This document shows positions 2,569 to 5,908 of a stretch of 63,896 nt of DNA, one piece after another. Below the pieces are notes generated by a model. That model was given only the letters and a program-made list of their open reading frames with translations, was not told where the DNA came from and ran no database searches. The stretch is taken from assembly GCA_000717735.1 (NCBI GenBank), contig JOBE01000058.1:1-63896 (forward strand). The letters run 5' to 3'. Position 1 is the stretch's first letter; every line of letters begins with the position of its first letter. The translations under genes and the position numbers were made by a program. The DNA is from Streptomyces griseoluteus. Lineage in GTDB: Bacteria > Actinomycetota > Actinomycetes > Streptomycetales > Streptomycetaceae.

Positions 2569-3939
2569 ATGGCTACCGAACCGCGGCACGAGCCGCCATC
2601 CCCCCGCCGGCCCGGAAAGCCCAGCCGGATCAGCCGGCTCGGCACCCCGACGCGCGCGACGCTCCAGGGGCTCGGCGCCCGGGCGGGCGAGACGTTCCAG
2701 GGGCTCGCGTCCGCGCTCACCACCCCCAGCACGCCCGGGGCGCCCCTCCTCTCCGACGCCTCCTCGCGCTGGGTGCGGCTGCTGCCGTACGTCTTCGGCC
2801 TCGCGCTCGTCGCGTCGCTCCTGCCCACCACGGTCCACCTCCTCAGCGGGGACTACGGCGTCAACGGCGCCCTCGCCGGCGCGATCGGCACCGCCCAGAC
2901 CGCGCCGCTGCTGCTCGCCGTCGTCCGCCCCCTGCAGGCCTGGTGGATCATCTTCCCCGCCAACCTTCTCGGCGCGCTCGTCCTGCTCACCTCGGACGGC
3001 CCGCGCGCCCACCTCTGGCCGTGGACCCCGCCGAGCGTCGTCGGCTACTGCGCGCTGATGATCGCGCTCGGCCTGCGCGAGTCCCGCCGGACGCTGTTCG
3101 GCGTCTGGCTGGCCACGGGCGTGGCCGGATACGCCATGGAGGCCTTCCGGCCCGACGGGTACAGCAGCATCCACACCCTGCTGTTCGTTCTGACCGGGGT
3201 GCTGCTGCTCCTCACCTCGGCCGTACGCGCGCGGGGCGACGCCCAGCGGCTGCTGCGGGAGCAGGAGACCATCAGCGAGGCCGAACGGGCCCACCGCACC
3301 CTCCTGGAGGAGCGGGCGAGGATCGCGCGCGAGCTGCACGACGTGGTGGCCCACCACATGTCCATGATCACCGTGCAGGCCGACTCGGCCCCGTACCGCA
3401 TCCCGGAGCTTCCGGAGGCCGCCCGCGAGGAGTTCACCTCGATCGCGGCGAGCGCGCGCGAGTCGCTGGCCGAGATGCGGCGGCTGCTGTCCGTGCTCCG
3501 CAGCGACGGCAGTGAGGGCGAACGGGCCCCGCAGCCGGGTCTCGACCGGGTCCAGCAGCTGGTCGAGGCGACGGTACGGGCCGGGGTGCCGGCCGAACTG
3601 CGGCTCGCCGCGGACCTCGGGGACGTACCGCAGGCGGTGGACCTGTCCGCGTACCGGATCGTGCAGGAGGCCCTGGCCAACGTCGTCCGGCACGCGCCGG
3701 GGGCGTCGACCCGGGTGTCGGTCCGGGCGGTCGAGGGGTGGCTGACGGTCCTCGTGGTCAACGGCCCCGCCACGGAGCCCGGTTCCTCGGTCGAGCGGGG
3801 CGCGTCCGGTACCGGGCACGGGCTCGTCGGCATGCGGGAGCGCGTACGGTTGACGGGCGGCTCGCTCGACACCGGTCCGCTGCCGGACGGCGGTTTCCGG
3901 GTGGCCGCACGGATGCCGCTAGGGCCTGTCCGGCCCTGA
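2569..3939 (+). CDS. Sensor histidine kinase (HisKA_3/NarL type), C-terminally truncated by a palindrome
   Basis: A 456-residue membrane kinase. The start at ATG 2569 follows the TACCCT box by 9 bases. A basic, proline-rich N terminus leads into about five membrane segments (residues about 65-210). The dimerisation and phospho-acceptor region has the H box RELHDVVAHH with His257, then an N box (EALANVVRHA) and a glycine-rich GHGLVGMRER ATP lid. The reading frame ends at TGA 3937-3939 inside a perfect inverted repeat (3921-3956). The same frame then stays open downstream and stops at TGA 4033-4035, overlapping the response regulator's GTG. The gene has therefore probably lost a low-complexity tail of about 25 residues, with the tight coupling to its partner. 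The catalytic core is intact. Confidence 0.88.
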   Translation: MATEPRHEPPSPRRPGKPSRISRLGTPTRATLQGLGARAGETFQGLASALTTPSTPGAPLLSDASSRWVRLLPYVFGLALVASLLPTTVHLLSGDYGVNGALAGAIGTAQTAPLLLAVVRPLQAWWIIFPANLLGALVLLTSDGPRAHLWPWTPPSVVGYCALMIALGLRESRRTLFGVWLATGVAGYAMEAFRPDGYSSIHTLLFVLTGVLLLLTSAVRARGDAQRLLREQETISEAERAHRTLLEERARIARELHDVVAHHMSMITVQADSAPYRIPELPEAAREEFTSIAASARESLAEMRRLLSVLRSDGSEGERAPQPGLDRVQQLVEATVRAGVPAELRLAADLGDVPQAVDLSAYRIVQEALANVVRHAPGASTRVSVRAVEGWLTVLVVNGPATEPGSSVERGASGTGHGLVGMRERVRLTGGSLDTGPLPDGGFRVAARMPLGPVRP

Positions 3940-3956
3940 TCCGCCGGACAGGCCCT
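3921..3956. repeat. Short palindromic element at CTAG inside the kinase 3' end
   Basis: A 13-base arm (3921-3933) is perfectly complementary to 3944-3956 around a 10-base loop. It starts at a CTAG (3919-3922), and its AGGGCCT edge resembles the ends of the elements at 27561, 33811 and 47301. The loop contains the in-frame TGA that ends the kinase. It can fold into a hairpin between the kinase and regulator coding regions and may attenuate the latter. Confidence 0.7.
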
Positions 3957-4031
3957 GGCCCAGGACCCGGCCACGACGACCGTCACGACCGCGACGAGCA
4001 CCAAGATCCCCACGACCGGCAAGGAACCCGA

Positions 4032-4712
4032 GTGACCATCCGCGTGATCATCGTCGACGACCAGGCCATGGTGCGGGCCGGATTCGCCGCACTGCTCTCC
4101 GCCCAGCCCGACATCGACGTGGTGGGCGAGGCGCCGGACGGGCGGCAGGGCGTGGACGTGGCGCGGTCCACGCACCCGGACGTCGTCCTGATGGACGTAC
4201 GGATGCCGGAGCTGGACGGCCTCGCCGCCGCCCGGGAGATCCTGCACCCGCCGACCGGTGTCACCCACCTGCCGAAGGTGCTCATGCTGACCACCTTCGA
4301 CGTGGACGACTACGTGTACGAGGCGCTGCGCGCGGGTGCGTCGGGCTTCCTCCTGAAGGACGCGCCGCCGGCCGATCTCATCGCGGCGGTACGGGTGGTG
4401 GCGGCGGGCGAGGCGCTGCTCGCCCCGTCCGTGACGCGGCGGCTCATCGCCGACTTCGCCGCGTCCCGGCCCGCCCCGCGCCGGGACACCACGGCGCTGC
4501 GCCTGAACGGTCTCACCCCGCGGGAGACGGAGGTCCTGGAGCTGATCGCCCGGGGCCTGTCGAACCAGGAGATCGCCGACCACCTGGTCCTCGCCGAGCA
4601 GACGGTGAAGACCCACATCGGGCGGGTCCTCGCCAAGCTGGACCTGCGTGACCGGGCGCAGGCCGTGGTCTTCGCGTACGAGTCGGGCCTGGTGACCCCG
4701 GGCACGTCCTGA
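4032..4712 (+). CDS. LuxR/NarL-family response regulator
   Basis: A 226-residue regulator starting at GTG 4032. The receiver domain (1-125) has the acidic pair VDD, phospho-acceptor Asp55 (VVLMDVRMPE), a Thr (MLTTFD) and Lys (LLKD). A C-terminal LuxR helix-turn-helix follows (LTPRETEVLELIARGLSNQEI). It is the partner of the kinase at 2569-3939. The ancestral kinase frame still ends in a GTGA overlap with this start, but the present kinase stops 92 bases earlier inside a hairpin. The duplicated motif upstream of the kinase gene and of the hydrolase at 4928 suggests it controls its own operon and the next one. Confidence 0.9.
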   Translation: MTIRVIIVDDQAMVRAGFAALLSAQPDIDVVGEAPDGRQGVDVARSTHPDVVLMDVRMPELDGLAAAREILHPPTGVTHLPKVLMLTTFDVDDYVYEALRAGASGFLLKDAPPADLIAAVRVVAAGEALLAPSVTRRLIADFAASRPAPRRDTTALRLNGLTPRETEVLELIARGLSNQEIADHLVLAEQTVKTHIGRVLAKLDLRDRAQAVVFAYESGLVTPGTS

Positions 4713-4814: not shown

Positions 4815-4881
4815 TACCCGGGTATCAGCACAGGGTTGGCTCCCCGGTGTGACGTGCCGTCACCCGTCGTCTTCCTACCTT
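4815..4881 (+). promoter_or_regulatory. Promoter/operator of the hydrolase-acyltransferase operon (copy 2 of the shared motif)
   Basis: TACCCGGGTATCAG (4815-4828), CCCCGGTGTGACGT (4842-4855) and TACCTT (4876-4881) match the kinase promoter blocks at the same offsets of 27 and 61 bases, while the intervening bases differ. Conservation of blocks and spacing argues for a functional regulator/RNA polymerase site rather than chance. Confidence 0.65.
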
Positions 4882-4927: not shown

Positions 4928-5908
4928 ATGCGCCGCTTTGCGAGGACCCTGACCACCATGGCCCTGGTGGCCACCGTGATCGCCGGAACGGCCGGCTGGG
5001 CGTCCGGGAACGCGCAGCAGGCCGTGACCGGCGCCCCGGTCGGGACTGCGGCCTGGCGGGCCGCGGGGCTGCCGGACCCCGAGCGGATGAGCCCGGCCGA
5101 GGTCAGTCGGTTCTTCGCGGGCCTCGGCCCCGTACGACAGCGTGAACTGGCCCGCACGCACCCGACGGTCGTGGGGAACCTCGACGGGGCGCCCCTGGAC
5201 CTGCGGTACGAGGCCAACGCCCGCACCACACACGGACAGTTCGAAGGGGCGCGGGTCCTGGCCCACGATCCGCGCGGCCGGGGGCAGGTGGCCCTCGTGT
5301 ACGGGGACCTGGCGCGGGCCGAGCACGTGGCCGTGATCGTGCCCGGCTCCGACACCGACGCGGCGCACGTACGGCCGCTCGCGGACATGGCGACCGCCCT
5401 GCGCCGGGCGACCGGCGGCCGTACGGCCGTCGTCGCCTGGGTCGGATACACCACGCCCGTCGGCGTGGGGCTCGACGCGGCCACCGGCCGCCTCGCCGAG
5501 ATCGGGGCGGACCGGCTCACCCGGTTCACCGACGGGCTCGCGGCCGTCGGGGCCGCCGAACCGTCCGTGTTCTGCCACAGCTACGGCTCCGTCGTCTGCG
5601 GCCTCGCCGCCCGCGATCTGAAGGCCAAGGACCTGGTGGTCCTCGGCTCCCCCGGGATGCGCGCCGCGAACGTCGCCGAACTCGGCACCTCCGCCCGCGT
5701 CTGGGCCGCGAAGGACCCCACCGACTGGATCGACCGGATCCCGAACGTCGAGGTCGCCGGTCTCGGGCACGGCACCGACCCCACCGATCCGGCGTTCGGC
5801 GCCCGCCGCGTCCCGGCCGACGACGCCGCCGGCCACGGCGGCTACTTCACGCCCGGCACCAGCTCCCTGCGCACCTTCGCCGCGATCGCCGGGGGAGACG
5901 TCCGATGA
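4928..5908 (+). CDS. Secreted DUF1023-type alpha/beta hydrolase
   Basis: A 326-residue protein with a cleavable signal peptide (MRRFARTLTTMALVATVIAG, cut probably near Ala-Ser-Gly at about 30). The start has a good ribosome site (GGAGAGGGAGGG). Motifs shared with the hydrolase at 211-1425 are HPTVVGNLDGAPLDLRYEAN, VIVPGSDTD, the elbow FCHSYGS, DPTDW and GHGTDP. Ser in the elbow is the presumed nucleophile. Its stop overlaps the acyltransferase start by 4 bases (ATGA), so the two are translationally coupled. An exported hydrolase coupled to a membrane acyltransferase suggests turnover or modification of an extracytoplasmic substrate, perhaps an acylated wall or surface molecule. Confidence 0.82.
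   Translation: MRRFARTLTTMALVATVIAGTAGWASGNAQQAVTGAPVGTAAWRAAGLPDPERMSPAEVSRFFAGLGPVRQRELARTHPTVVGNLDGAPLDLRYEANARTTHGQFEGARVLAHDPRGRGQVALVYGDLARAEHVAVIVPGSDTDAAHVRPLADMATALRRATGGRTAVVAWVGYTTPVGVGLDAATGRLAEIGADRLTRFTDGLAAVGAAEPSVFCHSYGSVVCGLAARDLKAKDLVVLGSPGMRAANVAELGTSARVWAAKDPTDWIDRIPNVEVAGLGHGTDPTDPAFGARRVPADDAAGHGGYFTPGTSSLRTFAAIAGGDVR

Follow-up and report, generated by a model that had tools for sequence, protein, structure and literature searches.

IS630 is reportedly selective for CTAG, a preference stated in the title of a 1991 paper by Tenzen and Ohtsubo. Among the elements with related ends, RUP of Streptococcus pneumoniae is a MITE of 107 bp with TA targets, thought to be moved by IS630-Spn1, according to the available portions of PMC2229807 and PMC3049150. 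For ISY100, the available part of PMC2170065 reports TA duplication in 34 of 39 products obtained in vitro; a further three had TA at one side and A alone at the other. A repeat-mediated deletion of the core, leading to a terminal-only form of 52 bp, is described for a PATE in the accessible text of PMC3119063.

The locus described here lies in Streptomyces griseoluteus, within a stretch of 63,896 nucleotides (contig JOBE01000058.1), hereafter the window. Very probably, a 34-bp, terminal-only miniature element of IS630 type was inserted there at the 3' end of an intact, overlapping pair of kinase and regulator genes, adding 36 bp, truncating the kinase and uncoupling its stop codon from the start of the regulator. 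A survey of the open-access literature on IS630, MITEs and short palindromic elements returned no described IS630-type MITE of Streptomyces.

The sensor histidine kinase gene extends, in its present form, over 2569..3939 (+ strand) and encodes 456 aa, with HisKA_3 and HATPase_c domains and the C-terminal residues RMPLGPVRP; its start, ATG 2569, was picked by matching the start of a close relative, P0001. The response regulator gene, at 4032..4712 (+ strand), encodes an intact protein of 226 aa, composed of a receiver and a LuxR-type domain (Pfam Response_reg and GerE), and is preceded by AAGGAA, a Shine-Dalgarno-like motif read from the sequence at 4021..4026 (+ strand). The end of the kinase gene is contained within an inverted repeat at 3918..3959 (no strand assigned), whose 17-nt arms, 3918-3934 and 3943-3959, are 94% complementary, with one mismatch, and are separated by 8 nt. 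A preliminary description had reported a perfect inverted repeat of 13 bases whose loop contains the stop codon of the kinase (TGA 3937-3939); this stop lies where described, and the perfect stem, AGGGCCTGTCCGGC / GCCGGACAGGCCCT around the loop CCTGATCC, is 14 bp long, one more than reported. The RNA fold of 3900-3980 has an energy of -54.9 kcal/mol (z -5.39), equalled by none of 200 shuffles, and a search for the paired 11-nt arms gives a single match in the window and none in 100 shuffles. From 3940 the same frame is open again, reads SAGQALAQDPATTTVTTATSTKIPTTGKEPE and closes at TGA 4033-4035, which overlaps the regulator GTG 4032-4034 as GTGA. This reopened frame, with its 4-nt overlap, had already been pointed out and can be read directly from the sequence; the tail quoted on that occasion corresponds to the middle part of SAGQALAQDPATTTVTTATSTKIPTTGKEPE only.

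An uninterrupted form of the kinase was found by protein search in P0001, listed as Streptomyces exfoliatus and known from protein sequence alone, which is 98% identical over 98% of the query (among the best 120 of 1595 matches). Its tail reads RMPL-AQDPATTTITTATTATTATSTKIPTTGKEPE, i.e. RMPL is directly followed by AQDPATTT...GKEPE, whereas the aligned window tail reads RMPL-GPVRP-stop-SAGQAL-AQDPATTTVTTATSTKIPTTGKEPE. Exactly 12 codons (36 bp) are extra in the window; the tails otherwise differ in one V/I replacement and in six Thr/Ala residues present only in P0001. The insert occupies 3921..3956 (no strand assigned), with a 34-bp core at 3922-3955 which recurs elsewhere in the genome; its ends may be placed one base leftward equally well. 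It is followed by the severed former kinase tail, AQDPATTTVTTATSTKIPTTGKEPE with its stop TGA 4033-4035, at 3958..4035 (+ strand), which matches the P0001 tail. The history proposed earlier, an insertion of about 40 bases adding a stop and a hairpin between the two partners, is thus borne out as an insertion and corrected in size to 36 bp. An assembly error, conceivable in a draft of 190 contigs, is extremely improbable as an explanation of the insert, which is short and lies inside a 63.9-kb contig, matches the uninterrupted allele on both of its sides and belongs to a repeat family that is real elsewhere.

The junction between the two genes was then compared among relatives. The kinase was searched in 199 genomes of the genus, with 185 matching at E 1e-60, and 30 loci were taken; further kinase loci were obtained from genome contigs (80 loci kept) and by a DNA search of 392 genomes (30 loci taken). 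From the 140 loci, 34 were left out, 27 for a kinase identity below 55% and seven in which the regulator start was missed by the pattern used. Three of these seven (L141, L155, L172) have a 4-nt overlap, two (L142, L168) appear on our reading to be coupled via TTGA and ATGA, and L137 and L166 are unscored. In the first relatives the tail runs into a 4-nt overlap in 29 cases out of 29. The scored set contains 91 distinct junctions, 80 of them coupled with a 4-nt overlap and 11, including that of the window, uncoupled; 12 junctions for which the pattern gave an overlap of 7 were counted among the coupled ones, the pattern being one codon too long and inspection giving 4 nt in 12 of 12. These figures agree with the preliminary description, in which the 4-nt overlap was taken as the expected state of an intact pair.

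The element arm is present at only one of the 91 distinct junctions, the window's own. At the other ten uncoupled junctions the gap measures 9-112 nt and the element arm is missing; some of these loci are kin to each other, and the ten cannot therefore be counted as independent events. At some of them, such as L121, the tail is closed by an in-frame stop, while at L127, L215 and L216 the regulator is reached only in another frame. Other Streptomyces kinases of this family whose variable tail contains an in-frame stop or a frameshift, and which have thereby lost the overlap, are those of L121/L214, L127, L215, L216, L219 and L224. The overlap is the rule for this gene pair, yet it is dispensable. 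Orthologues all carrying the hairpin and the early stop, or lacking the downstream in-frame tail, which would have contradicted the proposed history, are not what was encountered: the arm is confined to the window junction and the P0001 tail is uninterrupted.

These comparisons also bear on the possibility that the hairpin is a native terminator or attenuator, setting the kinase to regulator ratio of the operon. A very stable hairpin located exactly between the two genes would suit this role, and terminators devoid of a T run are said to occur in Streptomyces. The hairpin is, however, missing from 90 of the 91 distinct junctions and, as judged by protein, from the near-identical allele, and the same 34-bp unit is found at other places of the genome. 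In addition, no terminator-like site was called at the hairpin and no T run follows its GC-rich stem. A native attenuator was rejected on account of the missing hairpin at the other junctions and in the near-identical allele, and an intrinsic terminator for want of a T run and of a called site; overall, a native structure is very improbable, and insertion of a mobile element remains the preferred reading.

The pair of hairpin arms is found at two further places in the same genome. A half-pattern, AGGGCCTGTC, occurs there 130 times, against 23 occurrences of its reversed control; copies fetched from 100 of the 130 places gave 102 distinct oriented matches, chance ones among them. The resulting family has ends of the form (TA)GGGCCTGTC...GGATCA and comprises MITEs 160-200 bp in length, shorter forms measuring 29, 34, 42, 56, 60 and 79 bp, and a single insertion sequence, about 1.14 kb long. 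The latter (on C19, locus L053) is intact and encodes a 357-aa transposase, which matches the NCBIfam IS630 model NF033545 with 261.7 bits (cut-off 100) and also Pfam DDE_3; no other full copy was found in the genome, which has one additional match, partial in extent and weak. One end of this insertion sequence has 25 nt in common with the window hairpin, flanking T included, and its other end has GGGCCTGTC and GGATCA, like the rest of the family. A second full insertion sequence was considered at L064, where end patterns lie 1353 bp apart, and was rejected: the ORF is glycosyltransferase-like, and a 79-bp element is present there instead.

Allowing up to two mismatches, the 34-bp unit is found at 12 places in its own genome. 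It is present in 9 of the 199 genus genomes, its own one counted, and related stretches, at a loose limit of E 1, were detected in 80 plasmid records, 64 of them from Streptomyces. Seven of the fetched loci are solo 34-bp copies (L002, L003, which is the window's, L026, L056, L059, L079 and L083). The 34-bp core and the 36-bp insert are both too short to code for a transposase; the insert has terminal inverted repeats related to those of an IS630-family element and is dispersed in multiple copies. It is best read as a core-deleted, terminal-only MITE of IS630 type, for which the IS630-type (Tc1/mariner-related) family would be the source, and an IS630 transposase would have provided mobilisation. 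Its identification as a PATE, of IS605 type, was rejected, since the insert has terminal inverted repeats and the related insertion sequence is of IS630 type.

The target site was analyzed at the window copy and at other copies of the family. The window copy is flanked by CTA on the left (TA 3920-3921) and by TGG on the right (TG 3956-3957); the right flank being TG and not TA, a clean TA duplication is not seen at this copy. Empty sites were looked for in 16 relatives for six copies (C20, C21, C49, L028, L002 and L004). Copy C20 (L056) has flanks CTA/TAG and corresponds to a single CTAG in clean empty sites of two relatives (L272, L276), which fits the TA duplication expected of the family; of the 16 loci, 12 aligned on one flank only and two more were not clean. 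Copy C21 (L059) has flanks CTA/TGA, and TG is found in four relatives with clean empty sites (L257, L258, L260, L261), while in the other relatives there is additional sequence, the junction is slightly shorter (L265) or one flank only could be aligned. For C49 (L083) no clean empty site was found among the 16 relatives, many of which have a CTAG stop nearby. The junctions of L028, a MITE located at a stop codon, are fuzzy in the relatives and give no resolution between TA and TG; for L002 no relative locus included both flanks, and for L004 the alignment of the flanks stopped short of the junction. Of 35 partner ends, 31 have T as the inner base and 24 have A as the outer base; this count includes three probably spurious rows (L080, L088, L077).

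Either one TA has decayed at the window copy, or the unit can enter between the CT and RG of a target without duplication. In the latter case the unit that entered, between CT and GG, would have been 36 nt long with A...T at its ends, and not a 34-bp element accompanied by a TA duplication. We give this possibility appreciable weight without favoring it. It would account for the flanks of the window copy, for the TG of the four clean relatives of C21, and for an outer A that is less constant than the inner T; against it, IS630-family elements duplicate TA, as in the ISY100 products quoted above (PMC2170065, available part), and C20 is compatible with such a duplication, though equally with entry in its absence. 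In what follows the element is taken as the 34-bp unit.

As far as can be judged by comparing sequences, this unit looks like a 195-bp MITE which has lost its core by deletion between 12-nt direct repeats, with fusion of the two ends. In the 195-bp MITE of L001, one end is the window 34-bp unit with 1 mismatch (C44:19324), and the other end starts with the same GGCCTGTCCGGC (12 nt), so that the MITE contains a 12-nt direct repeat; the corresponding ends in L017, L021 and L082 have two different bases each. A deletion between the repeats would take out 161 bp and leave the window unit. The insert could accordingly have arrived as a full-length MITE (about 195 bp) and been shortened by core loss at its present position, the 34-bp form never having been mobile. 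This course of events falls only somewhat short of an even chance: the direct repeats, located in the left end and in the right subterminal stretch, would leave exactly the 34-bp unit, and the 52-bp PATE form (PMC3119063, accessible text) sets a precedent, but an identical deletion would be required for each of the seven solo copies, and in one relative, G268, a 34-bp copy lies within a few bases of the C49 position.

The latter copy (L241) sits where a gene ends, a few bases away from the site matching copy C49 of the window genome, which suggests separate insertions into the same intergenic stretch. Together with the seven solo copies, it counts in favor of the short form moving by itself. 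That the fused-ends unit is itself mobile, consisting of two overlapping ends devoid of interior and seeking CTAG-like sites, often stop codons, is a tentative and rather doubtful proposal. If true, the unit would be among the smallest transposing DNA units, and the window copy, located in a Leu codon, would be one of the few which cut a gene; CTAG-like sites being often stop codons in a GC-rich genome, about half of the examined ends would then leave a TAG stop.

A TAG stop in a coding frame was in fact found at 27 of 54 oriented element ends (25 of 47 in a first count), against 9 of 47 CTAG sites lacking the element, with coding frames assigned solely from open length and the GC content of third positions; ends in the CTA frame, the kind found in the window, are 3 of 54. 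When counted by site, 4 of 7 CTAG sites of the window are coding-frame stops, and therefore much of the bias may lie in the distribution of CTAG itself. Selective removal of harmful insertions would add to it.

According to the preferred history, the element entered between a Leu and an Ala codon in the tail of the kinase and lengthened the gene junction by exactly 36 bp. The TGA at 3937..3939 (+ strand), located in the hairpin loop and within the insert, is the terminator codon of the kinase and lies 92 nt upstream of the regulator start, in place of the former 4-nt overlap, so that the kinase end is cut off and uncoupled from the regulator, as first proposed. Supplied by the element, this codon makes the kinase stop after a gained GPVRP and lose a tail of 25 residues. 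The Pfam match to HATPase_c ends at the Leu of MPL, and the catalytic part is therefore whole; the lost tail varies freely among the first 29 relatives.

A piece of AAGGAGG, 3-5 nt long, precedes the regulator start at 91 of 91 junctions, reaching 5 nt in 56 of them. Predicted pairing around the regulator start is similar with and without the insert, the ribosome site being unpaired at 0.52 and 0.51, and the start codon at 0.02 and 0.00, respectively. The likeliest effect would be a loss of stop-start coupling, offset at least in part by the regulator's own ribosome site, so that the fall of the regulator relative to the kinase would be mild or nil. A mild fall through lost reinitiation is plausible. 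The suggestion that the insertion lowers regulator output is weakened, because ten junctions are uncoupled and have no hairpin, AAGGAA is kept, and the predicted accessibility of the start is unchanged.

Two further features of the neighborhood were recorded. The two-component system is flanked by two Abhydrolase_8 genes, at 73-1425 and 4928-5908, with 49% identity over 325 aligned positions. A motif, GGGTATCAG-N13-CCCCGGTRTGACGT, is located at 2498-2533 and 4820-4855, i.e. 5' of the kinase gene and of the hydrolase gene 4928-5908, and is a candidate operator or promoter common to the two-component system and its neighbor. It has two matches in the window and none in 100 shuffles; all 32 relatives inspected have loose forms, with up to five substitutions, in most cases at these same positions, a count made with no shuffle control.

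Two close alleles of a two-component operon are thus found to differ at the junction by a 36-bp hairpin insert. The value of the stop-start overlap for the kinase to regulator ratio thereby becomes directly measurable. The presence in the same genome of one IS630-type family, with shortened forms from 29 to 200 bp, bears both on the minimum size of a mobile unit and on what brings CTAG-seeking elements to the ends of genes.

Among known systems, RUP resembles the family described here in being a short non-autonomous repeat, with ends like those of an IS630-family element of the same genome and, probably, with TA targets; it differs in size, its 107 bp exceeding a GC-rich Streptomyces unit of 34 bp which is scarcely more than two overlapping ends. 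With IS630 and ISY100 the family probably shares the TA target, and the window genome contains an IS630 transposase gene with related ends, but the window element has no transposase and this copy shows an imperfect duplication. The PATE HqIRS46 of Haloquadratum, 52 bp long after core deletion, is similar in that its palindromic ends are fused through repeat-mediated removal of the core (PMC3119063, available text), while PATEs are related to IS605-type elements and have neither terminal inverted repeats nor target duplication.
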